This document shows, one piece after another, positions 18,210 to 34,408 of a stretch of 37,014 nucleotides of DNA. The notes below the pieces were generated by a model, which saw only the letters and a list, made by a program, of their open reading frames with translations, was not told where the DNA came from and made no database searches. Numbering within the stretch: position 1 is the stretch's first letter; every line of letters begins with the position of its first letter. The DNA is from a virus, in IMG/VR virus record IMGVR_UViG_3300032267_001213, positions 1-37,014 of that record. One strand, given 5' to 3'. The position numbers were made by a program, and so were the translations under genes.

Positions 18210-18391
18210 TCGAGACCTTAAAACACTTACTATTAGCTTATTTCGTGGGCTTGTTAATCATCTTAGTAATCAGCAAGCTTATTACAGTTTCTTTTTTATC
18301 TGTGATCGTTATAGCTTATGCGACTGTGGCGATAGGAGTTGGAACGATTCAGTTAGTGCTTAGTTTGCTTGGAGCAATGAATAGGGATTAA
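18206..18391 (+). CDS. Small two-helix membrane protein
   Basis: A 61-residue protein with two probable transmembrane segments (about 5-26 and 29-55) and short polar ends. Overlaps its neighbours by 4 and 1 nt, so is made within the replication operon. Could be a holin-like or replication-membrane tether protein; position in the early-type operon argues against a simple lysis role. No family recognised. Confidence 0.6.
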   Translation: MIETLKHLLLAYFVGLLIILVISKLITVSFLSVIVIAYATVAIGVGTIQLVLSLLGAMNRD

Positions 18392-21210
18392 TGGTTTATT
18401 CATATAAGCAAGTAAACGAAGCGGCTAAAGGCAGATGGGCTGATATTCTTTCGAGGATAGGCTTTTCTAGTATTCATTTAAACGGCAAATCTGGAGTCTG
18501 CCCTAATTGCTCGACTACTGATGGCAATCGATTCCAGTTTACGGATATCTGTAAAGCACAAAAGACCGAGGGTCTTATCGGCTGGGCTTACTGCCGCGGA
18601 TGTGAGTCTGGGTCTGGCTGGCATTGGCTAGAGAAAATGACAAATCTCAAAGGGCAAGATGCTTACAAGTTCGTAGCTGATATATTAGGAGTTCCTGAGC
18701 TTCACGCTAAAGGCTCAGGCGGCGGCTTTAATGAGTATATTCCGAGCGAGATCATATCGCCAGCTCCGAAGCAAGCATTTGACTGGGTAGATCAGAAAAA
18801 TAAGAAAATAAACTTCTATAATAAAAAACTTAAATCAGAGTACCCGAGCAGGTTTTATGAACGTCAATTCGTTTACGTTCTGCCGTATTATGATGATAAG
18901 GGCAAGGTAATCGGGCTAGCTAGCAGGTTTGAGCTTAGAGATGGAAGCAAGACAACGCCTATGCTTGCATGGCAGCAGTTTGAGAATGGCGACTGCGGCT
19001 GGAGTCAGCATGCGTTTGCGGAACCTAAATTTCTATTTGGTTTGCAAACGCTGCAAGCCGCTCCAGATAATGCAGTCGTTTATATAGTCGAGGGAGAAAA
19101 GTGTCAAAAACGCCTATCCGACCTAATTAAAGAGCCTGTAATTACTTGGACGTGTGGAGCCAAGTCTTGGAAAACTCACGACTGGAGCATACTTCAGGAC
19201 AAGGAGTTGGTATTTATTCCCGACCTAGATCAAAGATCAAAGATCAGCAAAGGGAAATTAGGCTATGAAGTAATGCTAGATATAGCTAAGCATCTAGGGA
19301 AGCCATTTAGAGCCATAATTTTCAAAAATATGGATCGCAGGCATGGCTATGATGTAGCCGATGCGATAGATGATGGACTTACAGCAGATCAGTTCAAGGT
19401 TCTTGTTAAGCGTTCAGAAGTTTATAATCCAGATGATGAGAGGCTCCGAGCTACAGCTTATCCGCTAACCGAAGATGATGAGCCGATAATCAGGCCCGAA
19501 CCTATAATCTTTGCTGAAAAACATTTAGCGGATCTAGAGCCAAGCAATGGGCATTATCGTGAACTTGGCTTCGATGGGGAGTTCTTTTATTTCTATATAG
19601 CAGCCTTCAGGGGCGTGAAATGGTTTAAGCGTGAGGGCTTAACCGATGGGGCTATTCTTCAAATGGCTCCCTTAGAATACTGGCAGGCGGTCTTCCCTAA
19701 GCGAAGTTCGACAGGCTTTGATTTAACATCAATTAAGAACGACATAATTCAAGGCTGTGCGAGGCGTGGCAATTTTGATATGTCTCGCATTCGCAGGCGT
19801 GGCGTGTATTTTGATAAGAATCGCGTAATAGTGAATCTAGGAGATCGCTTGGTCGTCGATGGCATAACGACTGATTATTTAAGCCTTGATTCTAATTATG
19901 TTTACATTTCAGCACCAGCTATAAAATTAGACCTTACAGCGATGGCGACCGAAAAAGAAGCAGATCTTTTACTTAAGTGCTTACTTGATCTTAATCTCGG
20001 GTCAGAGTCTGAAGCGTACCTATTACTGGGCTGGCTTACGCTTGCAGGTGTAGGTGCAGCATTAAACTGGCGTCCGCATATGTGGTTGAACGCCTCGTTT
20101 CAATCTGGGAAGTCTTGGTTACTTAATCACGTGGTGGTGCCGATCTTGGGCGATTTTTGCATTAAGATACTTGGCGGCACGACGGAAGCGTTTATCAGAC
20201 AGCAACAAGGCGATAATCTTGCGATTATCTTCGACGAATCTGAGGCTAAGACACCATCAAGTAAATTACGGATGGATGGGATTTTTGAATTAATGAGGAA
20301 TTCCTCCACGGACTCGCCGTTTATCGTCGGGAAAGGTTCTAAAGATAATCGGGCCGTATCATTCACGATTAAATCAATGTTTTTATTTTCGTCTATTTCG
20401 TTTGCTCCATCTGGGGCAGCAGATAGATCAAGAATTACTAATATTAATTTAAAGCCGAAAGAGGCTAAGACTCAAGCGGAGATAGAAGCTAAGGCAGCCC
20501 ATTTTAAAGAGCTTAAAAAGAAAATTTCAGAACTTAAGCTAGAAGAGAGAGGGCAGAGATTTTTGGCCCGAGCAATTTATAACATTAGACTAATAAACTA
20601 CAACAAAGCCGTTATGATTCAAGCGATTGAAAAGCTTTCTGGACATAGAAGATTAGCGGATCAATATGGCAGCTTGCTAGCTGGAGCATGGACTATGCTT
20701 TACGAGAGAGAACTAGATCTCGAAATGGCTGAAGCGTGGATAGTTAATACAGATCTTCATATTACAGATTATGAGCAGACTGTAACCGAATCGGATGAGT
20801 TAGATATCCTTCAGGTTCTACTGCAGCATGAGGTCTTCATAAACAGAGATCATGGAAGCATGGAGAGACTCACAGTTGGTCAGTGTTTAGAGCGAATTAA
20901 AAATGCTGATTTATCGAGCGATTCAATGCTTCCGATTAAAGAAACGCTCGCGGCTAAGGGGATTAAGTATCAGCCGCACCCAATGGAAACAGCTAACAAG
21001 GTGTATGTAGCAAGAAGATCGCCAGCATTAAGCTCTATATTTCAATATACGGCGGCACAGAATAACTGGGAAGTTTATCTAAAGCGTTTACCCTTTGCAG
21101 AAAAGTCTCTAAGCGATCCAGTGCATTTCAGTACATCGCTTGGCGGCTCTCAGAGAGCCATAGTTCTAAATGATAGTTTCATAGCAGATAAGAGGATACA
21201 AGATAGTTAA
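18391..21210 (+). CDS. Primase-helicase (zinc finger, Toprim, AAA-like helicase)
   Basis: A 939-residue protein. N-terminal zinc site C37/C40/C68/C71 (CPNC ... CRGC) for primase template recognition; a Toprim domain with E234-G-E and D278-L-D; a C-terminal helicase with Q-S-G573-K574-S Walker A (the first Gly is replaced by Ala in N-A-S-F-Q-S-G-K-S), Walker B IIFD615-E616, and an ADRSRI arginine segment. Resembles the primase-helicase organisation of P4/D5 and DUF927-like phage proteins, which initiate and unwind at origins. The Walker A variant is the only oddity. Central replication gene. Confidence 0.85.
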   Translation: MVYSYKQVNEAAKGRWADILSRIGFSSIHLNGKSGVCPNCSTTDGNRFQFTDICKAQKTEGLIGWAYCRGCESGSGWHWLEKMTNLKGQDAYKFVADILGVPELHAKGSGGGFNEYIPSEIISPAPKQAFDWVDQKNKKINFYNKKLKSEYPSRFYERQFVYVLPYYDDKGKVIGLASRFELRDGSKTTPMLAWQQFENGDCGWSQHAFAEPKFLFGLQTLQAAPDNAVVYIVEGEKCQKRLSDLIKEPVITWTCGAKSWKTHDWSILQDKELVFIPDLDQRSKISKGKLGYEVMLDIAKHLGKPFRAIIFKNMDRRHGYDVADAIDDGLTADQFKVLVKRSEVYNPDDERLRATAYPLTEDDEPIIRPEPIIFAEKHLADLEPSNGHYRELGFDGEFFYFYIAAFRGVKWFKREGLTDGAILQMAPLEYWQAVFPKRSSTGFDLTSIKNDIIQGCARRGNFDMSRIRRRGVYFDKNRVIVNLGDRLVVDGITTDYLSLDSNYVYISAPAIKLDLTAMATEKEADLLLKCLLDLNLGSESEAYLLLGWLTLAGVGAALNWRPHMWLNASFQSGKSWLLNHVVVPILGDFCIKILGGTTEAFIRQQQGDNLAIIFDESEAKTPSSKLRMDGIFELMRNSSTDSPFIVGKGSKDNRAVSFTIKSMFLFSSISFAPSGAADRSRITNINLKPKEAKTQAEIEAKAAHFKELKKKISELKLEERGQRFLARAIYNIRLINYNKAVMIQAIEKLSGHRRLADQYGSLLAGAWTMLYERELDLEMAEAWIVNTDLHITDYEQTVTESDELDILQVLLQHEVFINRDHGSMERLTVGQCLERIKNADLSSDSMLPIKETLAAKGIKYQPHPMETANKVYVARRSPALSSIFQYTAAQNNWEVYLKRLPFAEKSLSDPVHFSTSLGGSQRAIVLNDSFIADKRIQDS

Positions 21211-21211
21211 T

Positions 21212-21847
21212 ATGGAAGAGTTTATTTTTTTAAGTGAATGGGAAGAGGAGATCGAGGACGAATACGGAGCTGGCTTTATTAAAGGGATTCGCAGCTATTA
21301 TGATACAGGCGTATCATCTAAATACGTGGCTAAGATGTTCGGCACGCATGAGAGAAGCGTTCTTAAGATATGGTTCCCGACTAATACTATATTTGAGCCG
21401 TTTACAAAGCTTTTAAAGCTCTCATTAAAAGCAAAGGCGACCAAGTCTAGACCTTCGCCCAATATTGATAAAGGCTTGCGAGGTAAAGATGATCCTGCTG
21501 GCTCAGAAATTGAAAGGCTTTTACTGGCTGGATTTGGCGAGCATTATATCGCCGAGGCTTTAGATATAGCAAGATCACGAATCCAAGTCTGGAAAGTGGC
21601 TATTTACGGAGCGATTAACACCAGCAAAAGAAAAGATTTTGAAAGTAAAATAGATGAGGCTAAGCTTCTGAGATCAATTAAAATTTACGATGAATGGAAG
21701 AGCGGCATTCCAGCTGAGACACTGCTCCAAAAATATCAAATTAACTTTTTATCGCTGTCTAAAATCTTGAGATCCGCGGAAAGGAATTACCGCAAGCATA
21801 AGATTAAGTCAGATGGCTTTAATTCAAGAAAAGGAGAAAATAAATAA
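21212..21847 (+). CDS. Protein with three helix-turn-helix-like segments
   Basis: A 211-residue protein right after the primase-helicase. Three segments look like HTH units: about 28-55 (YYDTGVSSKYVAKMFGTHER), 102-131 (LLLAGFGEHYIAEALDIARS) and 157-189. A basic stretch separates 1 and 2. The pattern resembles resolvase-type or sigma-like HTH domains and suggests DNA binding as regulator or origin-binding protein. No exact family assigned. Start ATG follows the previous stop by one base. Confidence 0.65.
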   Translation: MEEFIFLSEWEEEIEDEYGAGFIKGIRSYYDTGVSSKYVAKMFGTHERSVLKIWFPTNTIFEPFTKLLKLSLKAKATKSRPSPNIDKGLRGKDDPAGSEIERLLLAGFGEHYIAEALDIARSRIQVWKVAIYGAINTSKRKDFESKIDEAKLLRSIKIYDEWKSGIPAETLLQKYQINFLSLSKILRSAERNYRKHKIKSDGFNSRKGENK

Positions 21848-22517: not shown

Positions 22518-22737
22518 TATAGATGAGCTGAAGCTTAGATTTGGTGCGGACTGTAAGGAATTAGACCGTAACGGAGAAAGACTTATAGCCACTAAAGAGG
22601 GCTTATATTTTGAATCTGGCTATTTCTACAGCAAAGAGCTATTAGCTGAGATCAGGAAAGACCCTCTGAGCTTAAATGCAGCAGTCATTCACTTAAATAA
22701 AATATTCGGAAACACAGTACAGGAGATAAAAACATGA
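22504..22737 (+). CDS. Small hypothetical protein
   Basis: A 77-residue protein from GTG 22504, overlapping the previous gene by 14 nt and the methyltransferase by 4 nt. No clear ribosome site and no motif. Coupled translation with the methyltransferase is likely. Confidence 0.55.
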   Translation: MKPFNIDELKLRFGADCKELDRNGERLIATKEGLYFESGYFYSKELLAEIRKDPLSLNAAVIHLNKIFGNTVQEIKT

Positions 22738-23370
22738 TTAAATTAATTCACGGCAAATGGCAAGATCATATTGATTTAATAGGGGAGGTCGATCTGATCT
22801 TAACAGACCCTCCTTATGGTATAGCCGCAGATTCGATAATGGCTAAAGACTCTGATCGCCTGAAATCTAAAAACTCAAAAGCAAAAACAAGGGTATATCA
22901 GAACTATAACTGGGACAAGATCGTAAGCGATGAGGAAATGAAAACCATCATTAGTAAAGGGAAGCGTGCGGTTATATGGGGGGGGGAACTATTACAAGCT
23001 AGATCCCAGTGCGGCTTGGATAGTCTGGAATAAGTTGAATGGCGGAATGGGTTATGCAGATTGCGAGCTAGCTTGGAGTAATATGGACATGGCTTGCAGA
23101 TATATAGAACATCGCTGGAATGGCTTTCTTAGAGAAGGCAGCGAGCCAAGATTTCATCCAACGCAGAAGCCTTTAGCTGTGATGGGCTTCTGTCTTGATC
23201 TCTATATTAAGAAGTACGGCAAGCCGAAATTAGTCTTCGATCCATTTGCAGGCTCAGCAACTACATTAAAGGCGTGCCAAGATCGAGGCATTGACTGTGT
23301 AGGGACTGAAATGATTGAAGAGTATTACTTAAAAGCTAATCAGAGATTAGCACAGCAAAGTTTATTTTAA
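22734..23370 (+). CDS. DNA methyltransferase (beta-class), split by a G9 frameshift
   Basis: Two overlapping frames together encode one methyltransferase of about 212 residues. The first (22734-23033) has motif IV D25-P-P-Y-G; the second (to 23370) carries W-I-V-W, FHPTQKP and the AdoMet site FDPFAGSATT near 180. Order IV before I is that of beta-class N6-adenine or N4-cytosine enzymes. The frame changes at nine consecutive G (22978-22986): with eight G the reading is V-I-W-G-G-N-Y-Y, restoring the protein. As written the gene would be off. It is either a phase-variable ON/OFF tract or an assembly error. Small size and lack of a clear TRD point to a short recognition site. Confidence 0.8.
22978..22986 (+). 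repeat. G9 homopolymer inside methyltransferase gene
   Basis: Nine G in a row in an AT-rich coding region, at the exact point where the methyltransferase frame breaks. Reading resumes with one G fewer. I noticed no comparable G run in another gene of the window. Confidence 0.85.
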
Positions 23371-27995: not shown

Positions 27996-28333
27996 TTCAA
28001 GAGAAAATAGAAAAAATAGAGCAGGAGCTTTTTAAGGCTAAGGCTTGGCTTAAGGGGCATCGTGCATTTGCGAGGCGTGCTGTTCCTGAGCTTCATGCTG
28101 AAATGTTTAAAAACATAGTTTTTATTTTTTATCAGATTAAGGGAGCCGAAAAAGCTTTTAAGCGATTAAAAGAGCAGTTCGCTGAAAACGAGAATGCTGT
28201 TCAATTACAGAGAATGCAGGAGGGTACTGGCTTTCAATATCTTGGGGCTTATCCGCTCGAATATACCGACGAAATAAACCATTACCTTGACGGCTTAGCA
28301 GATCGGATTCTTGATAGACTGAAAATCTGGTAA
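27989..28333 (+). CDS. Hypothetical helical protein
   Basis: A 114-residue protein from ATG 27989, 7 nt after GGAGG; ATG 27983 is too close to it. Very basic and helical with an amphipathic core (AEMFKNIVFIFYQIKGAEKAFKRL). Last gene before the strong terminator at 28357. Not recognised. Confidence 0.6.
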   Translation: MVVQEKIEKIEQELFKAKAWLKGHRAFARRAVPELHAEMFKNIVFIFYQIKGAEKAFKRLKEQFAENENAVQLQRMQEGTGFQYLGAYPLEYTDEINHYLDGLADRILDRLKIW

Positions 28334-28356
28334 AATCTTAAAAGTACAGAAACCTT

Positions 28357-28396
28357 AGCACTTAGATCGCCTCACATGATCTAAGTGCTTTTTTTT
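28357..28396 (+). terminator. Strong rho-independent terminator
   Basis: Perfect 12-bp stem AGCACTTAGATC (28357-28368) with GATCTAAGTGCT (28378-28389), 9-nt loop, then eight T (28389-28396). It ends the rightward small-gene operon. Confidence 0.92.
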
Positions 28397-28401
28397 GCTG
28401 C

Positions 28402-28407
28402 TAAAAT
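28402..28407 (+). promoter_or_regulatory. TAAAAT -10 box directly after a terminator
   Basis: TAAAAT lies 5 nt after the terminator T-run and 6 nt before ATG 28414. Only 17 bases separate the T-run from the ATG, and they contain no Shine-Dalgarno, so a start for this gene here would be leaderless. No clear -35 is seen, because the preceding DNA is the terminator. Confidence 0.5.
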
Positions 28408-28413
28408 AAAATA

Positions 28414-28737
28414 ATGGATTTAACTTTCTTCTTGCAGGGCGTGACAGCGTGGGAACTAATCAGGACTGGAGCTATTTCTGGGCTTGTTTTTTGGACTCTG
28501 CACCAGCTGATAATTAAGCGAGACATTCAGCAGTTAGTCGACTCAAATGAGGAAATAAAAAGCCAGCTAACCGAAATGAATCGCGATTTTGAAGACCAGA
28601 TTGAAAAAGAACTTAGACCATTTAGAGAGTTGCCTTCTGAAGTGAAGCTCTTTAAACAAGAAATATCACATTTAAAAGAAGTCATTTGCGTGGCTTACAA
28701 CATTAAAAGAGATTTACCACTAGAAATTAAGCCATAA
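28414..28737 (+). CDS. Membrane-anchored coiled-coil protein (holin or i-spanin candidate)
   Basis: A 107-residue protein: a single hydrophobic segment (about 11-33, TAWELIRTGAISGLVFWTLHQLI) followed by a charged coiled coil (33-85). This topology suits an inner-membrane spanin (Rz-like) or holin-related protein. It is a monocistronic unit bounded by terminators. Translation probably starts without a leader. Function is inferred from topology only. Confidence 0.55.
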   Translation: MDLTFFLQGVTAWELIRTGAISGLVFWTLHQLIIKRDIQQLVDSNEEIKSQLTEMNRDFEDQIEKELRPFRELPSEVKLFKQEISHLKEVICVAYNIKRDLPLEIKP

Positions 28738-28767
28738 AAAAACCCCAGAATCTCGGAAGATCTGGGG
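28736..28767 (-). terminator. Hairpin with minus-strand T-tract
   Basis: CCCCAGA (28743-28749) pairs with TCTGGGG (28761-28767); seven A precede it on plus, giving a T-run on minus. It terminates leftward transcription from the RHH gene at 29170-28913. Confidence 0.7.
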
Positions 28768-28873
28768 CAATTAAGGGACATCGTAAATTAGAAAAAGGCT
28801 CCAGCTGGTTTTTAATTAGCTGGCAAGTTACATTTTACCAGAACTTAATAATTATCGGGTAAAAAATAATCAG

Positions 28874-28914
28874 AAAGACCTGCATTGCTCCCCAGCCTCG
28901 CAGGTCTTTTTTTT
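28874..28914 (+). terminator. Rho-independent terminator, rightward
   Basis: AAAGACCTGC (28874-28883) pairs with GCAGGTCTTT (28900-28909), loop 16 nt, followed by T through 28914. It overlaps the stop of the RHH gene and terminates the 28414 transcript. Between it and the earlier hairpin lies one more inverted repeat, CCAGCT/AGCTGG with an 11-nt loop. Confidence 0.85.
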
Positions 28915-29170
28915 ACATTACGCCTTCAAATTCGGCATCAAGATCAAATATTTTCTTTTGTGCTGGGTAATCAGCCTCCGCGGAGTCGACTTCTGCTACA
29001 AAATTAGCTAATAACATGTTTGTCAAGGCAGTCGCCGACAGTCCCTGCGTAGAACCGATAGCACTAAGACGATCAAAAAGATCTCCCTTGATACGCACTG
29101 CCTTGTGAATGTCGGTTTTACCAAAAAGTTGTCCCTTTGAACTCTTAAAACTTTCGACTATTGATTTCAT
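28913..29170 (-). CDS. Ribbon-helix-helix regulator (orphan antitoxin-like)
   Basis: An 85-residue protein. HKAVRIKGDLFDRLSAIGSTQGLSATALTNMLLANFV (cited in parts: strand HKAVRIKG, helix LFDRLSAIGS, helix ALTNMLLANF) fits the RHH_1/CopG fold, followed by an acidic tail. Good ribosome site AAAGGAGATAAG. It stands alone, with no toxin-like partner beside it, and faces a perfect palindrome over its own promoter, so autoregulation is likely. A phage repressor is a good candidate role. Confidence 0.75.
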   Translation of the reverse strand: MKSIVESFKSSKGQLFGKTDIHKAVRIKGDLFDRLSAIGSTQGLSATALTNMLLANFVAEVDSAEADYPAQKKIFDLDAEFEGVM

Positions 29171-29190
29171 ACTTATCTCCTTTTTTTTAA

Positions 29191-29205
29191 CTATCAGTAT
29201 GATAG
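29191..29205. promoter_or_regulatory. Palindromic operator CTATCA-N3-TGATAG
   Basis: Perfect 6-bp arms (29191-29196 and 29200-29205) separated by gta. On the minus strand it covers the TGC-TATCAT extended -10 of the RHH gene, 20 nt before its ATG. Binding would block the promoter. Likely the RHH operator. Confidence 0.65.
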
Positions 29206-29499
29206 CAGAAAAAAGTTCAACAGAGCTTATAGTTTTTAATTTTTATCAATTGTACTAAGTGGCGTTTATCTAATCGACTGATAAATTTTTCAAACGACAT
29301 TCTTAGCTTATCAAGTGTAGCTAAATAACATTTAACAGTTAGAGCCTCCCAGTTAGGCAATTAAAAGAACCAACTGTTAGGTAAAAAAATAATTAGATTG
29401 AAAGTGTTAATTTACGACTACCTAGGAAGGTGTATTTTTGCAAAATAATGCAAATAAAATCATCATTTACATTCACGCTTCAAGATAAATACTAGCCGT

Positions 29500-29586
29500 G
29501 TAAGATCCGTAAGATTTTTGTAAGATGATAAAAACCTAATCAGGGAGATCAACACAAAAGAAATCTTACAATCTTACGCATCTTAC
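29500..29586. repeat. Six iterons, three GTAAGAT then three ATCTTAC
   Basis: GTAAGAT at 29500, 29509 and 29520; ATCTTAC at 29563, 29571 and 29580. The two groups face each other, so 27 nt on the left can pair with 24 nt on the right around a 36-nt spacer. Further copies: GTAAGAA 29682, ATCTTAC 29724, TCTTAC 29737. Such clusters are typical of origins or regulatory protein binding. Confidence 0.8.
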
Positions 29587-29589
29587 GCG

Positions 29590-29685
29590 AAAACACTTAT
29601 ATATAAACAATTGAAGAGGTAATTATCATTATATATCTCTCTTATTATTATTATTATTATATAGATATATATATGTAATATGTAA
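29590..29685. other. AT-rich tract next to iterons (unwinding element candidate)
   Basis: Nearly all A/T, with TTATTATTATTA and TATATATAT runs, flanked by iterons on both sides. The arrangement is that of an origin with a DNA-unwinding element; it could equally be a flexible regulatory spacer. Confidence 0.55.
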
Positions 29686-29779
29686 GAAAGAGCCTTCTAT
29701 CTGGCTTCCCGTGCAGGTCTTTAATCTTACGTTTTCTCTTACAGATATTACAAACGTCAGACCCAATCAGGGACAGGGT

Positions 29780-29822
29780 TTCACAAAGCCAACCTAGGTG
29801 CAGGTTGTAGGCGTTTTGTGAA
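29780..29822. other. Long imperfect hairpin
   Basis: TTCACAAA-GCC-AACCT (29780-29795) pairs with AGGTT (29802-29806), GGC (29810-29812) and TTTGTGAA (29815-29822): 16 paired bases with a 6-nt loop and two small bulges on the right arm. Could be an RNA element, primer/primosome site, or packaging structure. Confidence 0.6.
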
Positions 29823-29978
29823 CTTTCTTGATTTTAAAACCCAGTGCCAGTGCAGGTATTGAATGAATTGATGTTTTATTAAACAATAAAACCCGCTTAG
29901 GCATTGGGCCTTGAGCTGTATCACAATGTAATTACCCCCTACCCCCCCCTAATAGGTTCTACTTGAGGGTAAAAAGCA

Positions 29979-30001
29979 GGCGGGTTCCGCCGCCTTGCGG
30001 C
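29979..30001. other. GC-rich double palindrome, cos site candidate
   Basis: GGCGG-GTT-CCGCC (29979-29991) and GCCGC-CTT-GCGGC (29989-30001) overlap, so two hairpins compete. The island stands out in AT-rich surroundings and lies about 180 bp upstream of the terminase genes, where lambda- and P2-type cos sites are found. GpA-type terminases cut at cos. No cut was seen in the data, so this remains a candidate. Confidence 0.4.
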
Positions 30002-30141
30002 ATTTCTATTGTAAAAAGTTTTATAAAACCGTTTTACCTACAGGGTTTCAAGAAATCGAGATACCTTAAACGGTCTAACCGAAAGGGTTTCAAGTATAAA
30101 ATAGAATTAAAAGCTCATAGATAAAGGGCTTTGAAATCGAC

Positions 30142-30170
30142 TTGCTAAACTTTATTTAATTTACTAATAT
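30142..30170 (+). promoter_or_regulatory. Terminase promoter TTGCTA-N17-TAATAT with shared motif copy 3
   Basis: TTGCTA (30142-30147), a 17-nt spacer, and TAATAT (30165-30170) form a good sigma70-like promoter. The 14-mer (30151-30164, minus orientation) fills the spacer and abuts the -10. The predicted start at about 30177 lies 2 nt before ATG 30179, so the message would be leaderless. Confidence 0.65.
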
Positions 30171-30178
30171 TATTAAAA

Positions 30179-30793
30179 ATGGGTCAAAAATCTAAGCAAG
30201 CTAAATGGCTAACACTTGAAGAGGCGTGCAAGCTTGTAGATATCAGTCGTGCTGCTTGCTCTAGATGGATCGATAAGATGAATCTAGTCCCAGATCACCT
30301 AAAGAGAGTTGAGCCGAGAGCTTCAGGGGGGAAGGTTACCTATCTCAAGCATCCAGATTGGGCTATAGATGTCAGCACTAAACTTGATCGCAGCAATCCA
30401 GCTACTAAGCTTTATTCTGAATCGACTGGAAAATTTTTAGATCAAAAATCTTACTTGAAAATTGAAGGGCTGCTGAGTGTTAGGTCAGAAGCAAAGCAAG
30501 AAGCTAACATTGCAATGATAGCCATAAGCCGCAAGGAGGCTCTAGAGGCTGAGAAATTAGAGCTGGCTAACCAGAAGGCAAGGGTCGACTTAGCTCAGGC
30601 TCTTGGCGAGCTTGTTAAGATTGAGGATATACAGCAAGAGTTCAAAGAGAAAGTAACTGGCATAGCTCAACTGCTAGATGATCTGCCGTTCAAGATTGCA
30701 GAAAAATGTCAAAGCCAAAATTACGACCAGCTTCTAGATACAGCAAGTTTAATAGTCGAAAAACTCAAGGAGAAAATGATTGAAACGTTCTGA
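30179..30793 (+). CDS. Terminase small subunit (Nu1-like)
   Basis: A 204-residue protein. An N-terminal winged HTH (WLTLEEACKLVDISRAACSRWI, about 10-33) and a C-terminal helix with EKLELANQKARVDLAQALGELV, then VTGIAQLLDDLPFKIAEK, match Nu1/DUF1441-type small terminases (the ExxR...GELV and LDxLPxxLA patterns). It recognises the packaging site and recruits the large subunit, encoded with a 14-nt overlap. No ribosome site; ATG follows a promoter at leaderless distance. Confidence 0.85.
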   Translation: MGQKSKQAKWLTLEEACKLVDISRAACSRWIDKMNLVPDHLKRVEPRASGGKVTYLKHPDWAIDVSTKLDRSNPATKLYSESTGKFLDQKSYLKIEGLLSVRSEAKQEANIAMIAISRKEALEAEKLELANQKARVDLAQALGELVKIEDIQQEFKEKVTGIAQLLDDLPFKIAEKCQSQNYDQLLDTASLIVEKLKEKMIETF

Positions 30794-32744
30794 GTTTATA
30801 GATGTTAATCCTGATCTGGATTACCATAAACGTTCAAAAGCAAATGCTCGCAAAGTCGCAAGCAAGATTTTTAAAAACTCTATAAAACTGTCTCGCTATA
30901 AAATGTCCTTGATTGAATGGGCTGAATCTAATGTTCGGCTCAGGGGGGCAAGGGCTGGCCCTCTTGATCTAAGCTTAACGCCGCACATGATAGAGCCGTA
31001 TCGCTCAGCTGATTTCAATTCTAAGGTTACGGATATAGTTTTAATGTTCGGCTCTCAGATGGGAAAGTCGACCTTCTGTGAGATTGCGACTGGATTCTAT
31101 ATGGTCATAGGAACTGGGAATATAGGCTATGCCGTTGCGAATGATGAGCTGCTAGAAAGGATTAGAGAGGTCAGGGTAAACAAGATATTAGAGCAGGTGC
31201 CTGAGCTAGTCGGCATGATTAGCGAGGTTAAGGAAGAGAAAGGTGCTAAGAAGGCTAAAGATACTATCAAGCTTCTGAATTTTGGTAAAGCGTATTTATG
31301 TTTCATGTCGATGCAGTCTGTGACCGCGATGTCTAATATTGACTGCCAGATCCTAGTGCTGGAGGAAGTTAGGGACGCACCTATCAATATTAAAAATCAA
31401 GGCTGCCCAGTAAAGCTAGTCGAAAAAAGAAGATCCACTTATGATAAACGTTCTAAGAGGCTTATTCCCAGCACGCCTTCAGTAAAATCAGAGGATAAAG
31501 AAGTCGAGTGCAAAGTCTGGAGAGAGTTCCAGCTAGGCTCGCAGGAATACTGGAGCGTTCCATGTCCGCACTGTAATCATTACCATCAACTTGAACCAAA
31601 AAATGCAATCATGGATCACGTTCAAGGATTTTATGCGTTTGCGTGTCCTAGCTGTGGCGGCGTGATTGAGGAGACAGACAGAGATTTTATAGTTAAGGCT
31701 GGAAAATATATTTGCAAGAATCCCAGTCGGATAGATAAGTTTAGATCATTTCATAATAACCAGTTTATGACGGTGCAGGGCATAGGCTCAAGCTGGGAAA
31801 AGCTTTTGAGAGATTGGGAGCAAGCTCAGAGCAAAGAGGCAGAATTAATCACTTATACTAATACTGTTTTAGGTTTACCTTACAGCAAAATAGTAATAGA
31901 GGCTGATATCGAAATGCTTAAACTAAATAAAACAGAGTATCTTCCAAGTCGCCTCCCGACTGAAATTACTCACATTACCGCAGGGTACGACTTTCAAAAA
32001 ACGTGGGCAGAATGCACGGTCTGGGGCTGGGATAGACACGGTAAGCAGTATTTTGTTGAGCGTAATAAAGTCATGGGCGTTAATTGGGAGGATGTTCAAG
32101 GCACCTTAGTTCCATTTCTAGCAGAGAGTTTTAACAAGGTCTATCAAGTAGCTTTCAGGATGATGCATATCTCCGCAGGTTTTTTGGACGTTGGCTATCA
32201 GGCTGAGAAAATCGCACATGCTTGGTTCTTGGCTGGCTCTAACCAAAATTTTCAGTTCATCAAGGGTGAGTCTAAACACGATGATCCTAGAACCTATCTC
32301 GGGAAGACATTTGTTGAGAATGGATCTTTGAAACTGCCAGTTCATCGCTTAAATACGTTTAAAGCAAAAGAAAATTTATATTCACGTTATGAATTAGCTG
32401 TCTGTGAGAAGGGTTCGCTAGTATTCCCTTTTGATATTGACGACGAAGTCTTCATTCAATTAACAAGTGAAATTAAAGTTCATTCAAAAAATTCAGGCAG
32501 ACCAATCTGGGAAAAGAAAAACGGCTTTATCAGAAATGAAGTTCTTGATTGCACTGTTTATGCAGTGTTAGCTCATGATATTTTAATCTCGGATTTCAAG
32601 CACCTACATGAAGAGCCAGCAGAAGAGGCAGCCCAGAAAGCTCCAGCTTCGCCAGAAGTAAAGGTAAATGACATAACAGAACAGAAGGCTTATAATGAGC
32701 CTGTAAGGAGTCAGAGCCGCATTCCTAGTGCGTTCGATGATTAA
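30780..32744 (+). CDS. Terminase large subunit (GpA-like)
   Basis: A 654-residue packaging ATPase-nuclease, close to lambda gpA (about 640). Start TTG 30780 lies behind AAGGAG (30767-30772). ATPase: G91-S-Q-M-G-K96-S-T Walker A and L-V-L-E195-E196 Walker B. A zinc pair C262/C265 and C289/C292 follows, then a nuclease region with ITAGYDFQKTWAE (a D for metal binding) and EVLDCTVYA near the end. It translocates DNA into the procapsid and cuts at cos. Classic gpA arrangement with a small subunit upstream and gpW downstream. Confidence 0.92.
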   Translation: MKRSEFIDVNPDLDYHKRSKANARKVASKIFKNSIKLSRYKMSLIEWAESNVRLRGARAGPLDLSLTPHMIEPYRSADFNSKVTDIVLMFGSQMGKSTFCEIATGFYMVIGTGNIGYAVANDELLERIREVRVNKILEQVPELVGMISEVKEEKGAKKAKDTIKLLNFGKAYLCFMSMQSVTAMSNIDCQILVLEEVRDAPINIKNQGCPVKLVEKRRSTYDKRSKRLIPSTPSVKSEDKEVECKVWREFQLGSQEYWSVPCPHCNHYHQLEPKNAIMDHVQGFYAFACPSCGGVIEETDRDFIVKAGKYICKNPSRIDKFRSFHNNQFMTVQGIGSSWEKLLRDWEQAQSKEAELITYTNTVLGLPYSKIVIEADIEMLKLNKTEYLPSRLPTEITHITAGYDFQKTWAECTVWGWDRHGKQYFVERNKVMGVNWEDVQGTLVPFLAESFNKVYQVAFRMMHISAGFLDVGYQAEKIAHAWFLAGSNQNFQFIKGESKHDDPRTYLGKTFVENGSLKLPVHRLNTFKAKENLYSRYELAVCEKGSLVFPFDIDDEVFIQLTSEIKVHSKNSGRPIWEKKNGFIRNEVLDCTVYAVLAHDILISDFKHLHEEPAEEAAQKAPASPEVKVNDITEQKAYNEPVRSQSRIPSAFDD

Positions 32745-32746
32745 TC

Positions 32747-32959
32747 ATGCCAGACATAGACGGTAATTTTACCAACGCGGATGTTTCTCAGCTTAAAACC
32801 CAGATGCTAAGCGGCAAAAGAGTTAAGCACGGAGATAAGGAAGTCGAGAATTACGGCGTTGATGAGGCTATCAAGCTTGCTAATTGGATGAGTCAGGAAG
32901 CTAATCAATCGAATGGTGTCGCTGTCTTTAATCCAGCAATCGATACAGGCTATTTCTAG
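32747..32959 (+). CDS. Head-tail connector (lambda gpW-like)
   Basis: A 70-residue protein between terminase and portal, like lambda W (68). SQLKTQMLSGKRVKHGDKEVENYG followed by a helix ending NWMSQE matches the gpW shape (L-x-x-L-x-x-G-K-x-V ... a strand pair, then helix). It would stabilise packaged heads before tail joining. Assignment depends on size, position and pattern. Confidence 0.8.
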   Translation: MPDIDGNFTNADVSQLKTQMLSGKRVKHGDKEVENYGVDEAIKLANWMSQEANQSNGVAVFNPAIDTGYF

Positions 32960-34408
32960 ATGTTCAAAACCCTTAAAAAACTTTTTAATCTGCGTTATGA
33001 GGGCGGCTCCGCTAGTTATAAGCACGGCATTTCAACGCAGTACAATGTAAACGTAAGTCCTAATGCTGAATACGGCTTCAGCAGGCAGAGTTTAATCGCT
33101 AGATCAAGATATTTAGCGGAGAATAACGAGCTTGCAACCAATGCCTTGACTCTGTATTGTGATTACACCATCGGGAGCTATATTACTCTAGATTTTTCTA
33201 AGTTAGAAGCCTCTGATAAGGACAGAGAAACACTCTCTGAGATTTTCAGCGAGGCTAGAGAAGAAACAGCGATTGATTTTTACAATAAATTTAATTTTGA
33301 TGAGTTTATTTGGAACTGTTTATATTTAATGCTCAAGGATGGTGATGTTTTCATTCGCAAGCGTGTAGATTACAGATCGCCGTTCGGATGCACGTTTCAG
33401 ATCATAGAGTATGACCAACTCGCAAGAGATAATATTTTCACTCAGCAAAGCAAGGATGGAAGCTATATAGATAAAGGGATTCGCTATGATGTTCAAGGGC
33501 GAATAGTAAGCTATTTCTTTTATAAGGCTCATCCGAATGGCGAAAACCTAATCAATCAAATGGAAGTTATTGAAATACCAACTTCGCAGATTCATCATTT
33601 AAGTTATTCGCTAAAAAATAGACCAGCACAGGGCTTGGCAATGCCTTTATTAACGCCTGTAATCGTAAGGCTTGACCAGTTGAACCAATACGACAGGAGC
33701 CAGCTTAGAAAGCAGACGCTTAGCGGCATGTTTGCAATGGTTTTAAAGAAGGCTGGATTTGGCTCTATTTTTGGGAATGCACCTAACTCGGGCAAGCCAG
33801 ATATAATGCCCTTAAATCCTCAACGGACACGCATTGACACGGCAACAGATGGAACAGTTCTAGAGCTTGGCGAGGGATTTGAAGCTTCGTTCCCATCTCA
33901 GCCGAAAACCGATGAATATCAGTCTTATCACGAGGTCAATGGGCGTTTAATAGCAGTCGGAACTCACGTCCCCGAGCCATTATTAACTAATAACTTTGCT
34001 CGCGTTAATTTTAGTTCGCTTAGGGGAGCGATGTTGCCATTTTTAAAAAGGACTAAGATGTTAAGAAACGGCGTAGTATATAGGCTTCTGCGATATATTT
34101 TCAAGGAAATAATCAAGCACGCAAGCGTGAAATATGATTTAAAAATAGGTAAACTTCCAAGACCAAGATTTGAAGCGATGTTTATGTTTGATCCAGTGAA
34201 GGAATCCGAAGCTCTCAAGAAAATGATGAGGCTCGGGATCTTAAGCTACAAAGATGCGGTCGCTGAATATAGTAATTCTACTTATGAAGAGCTTATGAAA
34301 GAGCGAGAAGATTATAAACGAGACAAAACAGCTAAAGGACTCTACGATGATGGAGATCCAGCTGATGATCTTGGCAGAGACAAAAACCAATCAGGAACAG
34401 GAGAATAA
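32960..34408 (+). CDS. Portal protein (lambda gpB-like)
   Basis: A 482-residue portal. NNELATNALTLYCDYTIGSY, DGDVFIRKRVD and the C-terminal ALKKMMRLGILSYKDAVAEY are typical of the lambda-type portal family, including the alpha helices of the stem (LLTPVIVRLDQLNQYDRSQL). Twelve copies form the DNA-entry vertex. ATG immediately follows the gpW-like stop. C-terminal GTGE tail is charged and disordered. Confidence 0.88.
   Translation: MFKTLKKLFNLRYEGGSASYKHGISTQYNVNVSPNAEYGFSRQSLIARSRYLAENNELATNALTLYCDYTIGSYITLDFSKLEASDKDRETLSEIFSEAREETAIDFYNKFNFDEFIWNCLYLMLKDGDVFIRKRVDYRSPFGCTFQIIEYDQLARDNIFTQQSKDGSYIDKGIRYDVQGRIVSYFFYKAHPNGENLINQMEVIEIPTSQIHHLSYSLKNRPAQGLAMPLLTPVIVRLDQLNQYDRSQLRKQTLSGMFAMVLKKAGFGSIFGNAPNSGKPDIMPLNPQRTRIDTATDGTVLELGEGFEASFPSQPKTDEYQSYHEVNGRLIAVGTHVPEPLLTNNFARVNFSSLRGAMLPFLKRTKMLRNGVVYRLLRYIFKEIIKHASVKYDLKIGKLPRPRFEAMFMFDPVKESEALKKMMRLGILSYKDAVAEYSNSTYEELMKEREDYKRDKTAKGLYDDGDPADDLGRDKNQSGTGE

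Follow-up and report, generated by a model that had tools for sequence, protein, structure and literature searches.

Iterons around an A/T-rich tract form a candidate initiator-dependent replication origin in a freshwater myovirus

The DNA analyzed here (the window) is an entire IMG/VR record of 37,014 bp, a linear fragment of a virus described as a freshwater phage, which is a myovirus with a terminase of the GpA family. A nucleotide search of INPHARED with positions 28000-34000 gave no DNA relative, and no host was inferred because a terminase-profile scan of genomes found no prophage relative. At the site of interest, the gene order is a lysis gene, small genes, a leftward ribbon-helix-helix (RHH)-like gene (28913-29170), a gap, terS and terL, and rightward genes predominate on both sides. 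The gap (29171-30178) measures 1,008 bp and is by far the longest gene-free region of the window, as the initial annotation had stated, the runner-up being 175 bp. No DnaA box was found in 29170-30178, so the gap lacks the boxes that mark a DnaA-dependent oriC, and an Rfam search returned nothing credible. GC skew, which had been suggested as a check, showed no sign switch in the window attributable to the site and hence gives no support either way. Elsewhere in the window, a DNA methyltransferase gene (22734-23370) is apparently split into overlapping frames, 22734-23033 and 22966-23370, and the split is apparently a frameshift or a sequencing error.

Within the gap, nine copies of GTAAGA are clustered in 243 bp on both sides of an A/T-rich tract, with starts at 29500, 29509, 29520 and 29682 on the + strand and at 29564, 29572, 29581, 29725 and 29737 on the - strand. 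The remaining 36.8 kb holds 20 copies, and the number expected in 243 bp is 0.13 (Poisson P ~3e-14). Among 6-mers, no cluster in the record is stronger, with 9 copies per 250 bp here against at most 6 for any 6-mer in 60 Markov shuffles, and a second comparable cluster was not found in the window. To the left of the tract, three direct copies of GTAAGAT (29500-29526, + strand; at 29500, 29509 and 29520, spaced by 9 and 11 bp) are opposed by three inverted ones (29563-29586, - strand; ATCTTAC on the + strand at 29563, 29571 and 29580), the inverted trio being spaced by 8 and 9 bp. The initial description of nine TAAGA(T)-type sites, three direct facing three inverted, was thus borne out. To the right there is a forward group (29675-29687, + strand) of a degenerate GTAATA at 29675-29680 and a GTAAGA at 29682-29687, and an inverted group (29724-29751, - strand) of ATCTTAC at 29724-29730, TCTTAC at 29737-29742 and a degenerate TATTAC at 29746-29751. 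The two degenerate GTAATA copies, at 29675 on the + and 29746 on the - strand, were added by a weight matrix and complete a second, near-symmetrical iteron group. The full layout is therefore three forward iterons, about 38 bp and three reverse ones, then the A/T tract, then two forward, about 37 bp and three reverse.

The tract itself (29591-29681), a candidate DNA-unwinding element, has the lowest GC content of any 90-bp window in the record. The initial annotation had described about 95 bp of nearly pure A/T DNA here; the tract stands, but its A+T content is 84% over the 100 bp of 29591-29690 and is not nearly pure.

Only one close relative, contig L005, spans the region, and it aligns with the window rightward from 29479 at 96%. 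In the conserved candidate origin segment as a whole (29479-29750), the two differ by 5 substitutions in 272 bp (1.8%) with zero indels and with every iteron core unchanged; the direct and inverted trios are identical and the A/T tract diverges by 1%. By comparison, divergence reaches 13.3% at fourfold sites in the adjacent genes (Fisher P 1e-9 against the 1.8% of the region) and 9.1% in the spacer at 29751-29980. All nine GTAAGA sites are kept, so the conservation of the repeats in close relatives, on which the initial annotation had let its reading depend, is seen in this one relative. The base-level conservation of the A/T tract exceeds the needs of melting alone, and a second function, such as a promoter, may be superimposed on it. 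Leftward of 29479 the homology ends, and L005 has a divergent version in place of the RHH-like gene and the DNA upstream of it. This swapped module ends exactly at the left edge of the origin segment and brings new A/T-rich repeats upstream of the RHH-like gene. As RNA, the facing iterons also fold well for either strand (z -4.0 and -3.6). An RNA hairpin reading was nevertheless dropped, because inverted binding sites fold so by construction, and inverted sites are also present in the P4 and phage-inducible chromosomal island (PICI) origins; with five substitutions between the window and L005, a covariation test of the hairpin is impossible.

The right part of the gap holds further repeats and a candidate DNA end. 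Three direct copies of GTGCAGGT lie at 29711, 29798 and 29850, between origin and cos, and their core TGCAGGT is kept in L005 despite the divergence of the surrounding spacer. A candidate cosN is located at 29976-30001, where contig L003 ends exactly at window position 29983 (GGTTCCGCCGCC), and the starts of more than 10 distant GpA contigs likewise fall at GGT... a short distance upstream of terS. Matches to the cosN pattern in L087, L089 and L090 were discarded as unrelated. Ahead of terS, three cosB-like repeats are found in 30043-30136, namely GGGTTTCAAG at 30043 and 30085 and GGGCTTTGAAA at 30126.

The protein proposed as initiator is a 939-aa primase-helicase (18391-21210, + strand; PHROGs 35358/21086/510), whose gene lies 8.3 kb from the origin segment. 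It has a CHC2-like zinc motif, a TOPRIM primase (residues 212-360), a Walker A/B ATPase (about 566-619) and a winged-helix-like C-terminal domain (800-885). The full-length model was mostly of low confidence (pLDDT 41.8) and the TOPRIM part alone was used, which matched the fold of Twinkle, T7 gp4 and DnaG with Z of 11-12 (best 11.8, rmsd 2.6, 118 aligned). The C-terminal domain model (pLDDT 76.7) has the element order helix, two strands, two helices, two strands. Its best match by VIA-align was weak (Z 5.7, range 5.5-5.7; rmsd 3.8, 96 aligned) and is the pCW3 relaxosome accessory protein, which has also been solved with oriT DNA; PriRep1 with dsDNA gave a weak match (Z 2.9), and Foldseek against the PDB found no significant match for this model. 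The primase half is homologous to the TOPRIM part of P4 alpha (hhalign 97.6%, E 3.7e-12). In the helicase half, Walker A/B motifs are present and homology to P4 alpha, VapE, DUF5906 or PICI helicases was undetected at the sensitivity used, the hhalign probability against EcCICFT073 being 14.7%. The best PHROG is 2249 for P4 and 35358 for the window protein, and the helicase half looks like a member of another family than those of P4 and PICIs.

A tblastn search for relatives with the 939-aa protein yielded 26 phage records, with identities of about 25-33%, and each fetched complete genome was scanned for its strongest short-repeat cluster with no iteron sequence presupposed. In nearly all phages whose primase-helicase is 25-32% identical to that of the window, one intergenic cluster of related iterons (mostly GTAA[C/G]) dominates and often abuts the primase-helicase gene. 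GGTAACA occurs 11 times starting 10 bp after the gene in phi1422, and TGTAACA 8-11 times just upstream of it in Acjo_20. The TGTAAGC cluster of KLER1-1 lies between the gene and the cos/genome end and, since terS is at the opposite end of the record, adjoins cos as in the window. More distant positions are those of GGTAAC in MQ-4, 1.7 kb downstream of the gene, of CGTAAC in PY223, in the gap preceding the terS region, and of GGTAAC in Touem01 (12 copies), near the genome end, at 12 kb from the gene. CTAACG is the repeat of S-H1 and ZRG1, seen in the latter only after repeats within genes had been excluded and the intergenic gaps read; Mwe-JY13 has a weak cluster of five GGTAAT, and the partial record MT835534 has ten copies of a different core, AGAACC, right after the primase match. 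The cluster is directly 3' of the proposed initiator gene in phi1422, S-H1, KLER1-1, L040 and L134, and a 60-bp stretch of 10-17% GC is enclosed or adjoined by it in the window, PY223, KLER1-1, MQ-4, phi1422 and Acjo_20. GTAA is part of the iteron core in 6 of 9 complete genomes against 2.6% of 6-mers, a proportion that is indicative only, the genomes being related via the gene; in PY223 and KLER1-1 another 6-mer is as dense as the one with GTAA or denser. Of the six relatives of the 90-kb class, five were inspected only within 4 kb of the primase, and no cluster was seen in that span. As far as can be judged from these sequences, the iteron is still recognizable between proteins only a quarter identical.

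The association was also seen in a blind set of 77 loci (548 kb) picked by terminase alone. A dense GTAA[C/G] cluster was present in L040 alone (11 in 260 bp; at most 5 in the other loci), a homologue of the primase-helicase was present in L040 alone (32%, E 2e-62), and the cluster begins where the gene of this homologue ends. As positive controls, the same kind of scan ranked the annotated crr and ori of P4 at the top (GGTGAACA, in mixed orientation), and in E. coli CFT073 it gave 11 copies of GGTAGA directly after pri-rep, which is the EcCICFT073 origin, proven functional by plasmid assay (PMC6092414).

Phages of the VapE type (L095, L108, L109, L111 and others) share the layout, placed right after the primase gene. 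Since they were selected by the GTAAGAT pattern itself and homology of their initiator to that of the window was undetected, they speak for the layout being that of an origin and not for common descent of the motif. Freshwater contigs with GGGTAAGATGG iterons (L095, L106, L107, L108, L109, L111, L115, L118, L121, L124, L131, L133, L135 and L136) have these around a TATA-rich tract, in most cases directly after a VapE/BT4734-type primase-helicase gene, and are likely another origin family. The 69-kb record IMGVR_UViG_3300020048_000119 has two GTAAGA arrays, at L104 4915-5199 and L117 9279-9657, more than 25 kb apart, each of six direct and then six inverted copies with 8-9 bp spacing; judging from this arrangement, it possibly has two origins.

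Because relatives of the primase-helicase travel with the same kind of iteron, we consider this protein the likely initiator, and on the sequence comparisons it is probably the direct binder of the iterons. The initial annotation had connected the origin with proteins of the phage itself, which is supported for the primase-helicase and is not supported for the protein it had suggested for a gel shift, a multi-HTH protein of 211 aa (21212-21847). An origin at which the iterons are bound by this protein, by another phage protein or by a host factor that then recruits the primase-helicase seems unlikely to us. The HTH gene starts 1 bp after the primase gene and is 99% conserved in L086, and the sequence of its product, judged by eye, plausibly contains helix-turn-helix repeats. 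However, tblastn with this protein against the 50,697 phage records of INPHARED gave no match at E<=1, yet phages there bear related iterons, and these phages were found by means of the primase-helicase; the gap also lacks DnaA boxes. The RHH-like protein would bring a different function, the iterons being the operator or partition site of its small, divergent and adjacent gene. Its ribbon-helix-helix look was judged by eye (family searches gave no match), and it is an unlikely iteron binder because the gene and upstream DNA are replaced in L005 while the iterons are identical, which leaves this explanation very little probability.

A transcription control region, with a late promoter for the terS-head operon and operators for a phage activator or repressor, is also improbable, although the terS operon would seem to need a promoter between 29170 and 30179, given a hairpin and T run that resemble a terminator at about 28876-28912 (by eye), and the strong conservation of the A/T tract would suit one. 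Promoter-like matches are no more frequent than chance (6 vs 4.7), and the clusters of the relatives adjoin the primase gene and are not consistently upstream of terS. The cos end only about 230 bp to the right of the iterons, as defined by the end of L003, raises the question of terminase-binding, cosB-like repeats of a packaging site. Against this, the expected place of cosB, between cosN and terS, is taken by the separate GGGTTTCAAG-type repeats, the iterons lie to the left of the inferred cosN, and in the stretches of other GpA phage contigs that were available, with a cos-like end there, no such cluster was seen except in L040; we hold a packaging role to be highly improbable.

Taken together, sequence constraint, the co-occurrence of iteron and primase-helicase, and the same layout at the proven P4 and PICI origins support the initial proposal of a replication origin, and we regard 29479-29750 as the initiator-dependent origin of this phage with a probability of roughly 0.87. 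The primase-helicase would recognize the GTAAGA iterons, most likely via its winged-helix-like C-terminal domain, and initiator rings would assemble on both iteron groups flanking the A/T tract. The tract would then melt, two helicase rings would load in opposite directions, and the attached TOPRIM half would prime DNA synthesis.

With more reserve, we favor the view that a large tailed-phage family of diverse bacteria shares a previously undescribed, co-evolving origin-initiator pair, in which the initiator is a self-loading TOPRIM primase-helicase fusion (PHROGs 35358/21086) reading iterons with a [G/C]TAA[C/G] core on either side of an A/T tract, and in which the origin can move from the gene to the cos end. 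If true, this would refute the published claim that no replicon except PICIs shares the layout of two iteron sets. Phage origins are mostly unmapped, and one rule, a cluster of STAA-core iterons, would predict the origin and the likely initiator in about 10 phages that differ widely in other respects, namely phages of Pseudomonas, Bordetella, Serratia, Acinetobacter, Bdellovibrio, Synechococcus and Microcystis, and in freshwater virus contigs.

In PICI origins (SaPI, EcCICFT073), an A/T-rich stretch at which melting is presumed lies between two sets of short iterons, and the primase/helicase is encoded by the replicon (PMC6092414). The window likewise has two iteron groups around an A/T tract, and its own primase-helicase, the presumed initiator, is encoded at 18391-21210 of the same replicon. 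In contrast, the PICI origin is immediately 3' of rep, whereas that of the window is 8.3 kb off and next to cos; the helicase half of the window protein has no detectable sequence relation to that of PICIs, and the replicon is a tailed phage and not a satellite. By this analysis the window origin would work like a PICI origin, but it is not classed as one, as it is not immediately 3' of the gene. P4 also has type-1 iterons of 8 bp (GGTGAACA), often 9-11 bp apart and in both orientations, its alpha protein shares a homologous TOPRIM primase half with the window protein, and its ori is separated from the alpha gene as well. It differs in the iteron sequence, in having two separate annotated sites (ori and crr) instead of one cluster, and in the lack of detected homology across the helicase half.

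For SaPI Rep and SCCmec Cch2, the iterons are reported to be bound by the C-terminal domain (PMC7581432). The C-terminal domain of the Cch2 helicase binds direct repeats (AAGTG iterons) outside its own gene, which resembles the arrangement proposed here, but the iteron is another one, the helicase is of the Primase_Cterm/D5 type and just three iterons are reported (PMC7581432). In lambda-type origins, the iterons are inside the initiator gene, unlike the intergenic ones of the window at 8.3 kb from the primase gene. The window thus appears to combine an origin layout of the satellite type (P4/PICI) in a tailed phage with a helicase half from a different family and a separation of the origin from its gene, and would extend the satellite-style layout of PICIs and P4 to full phages.
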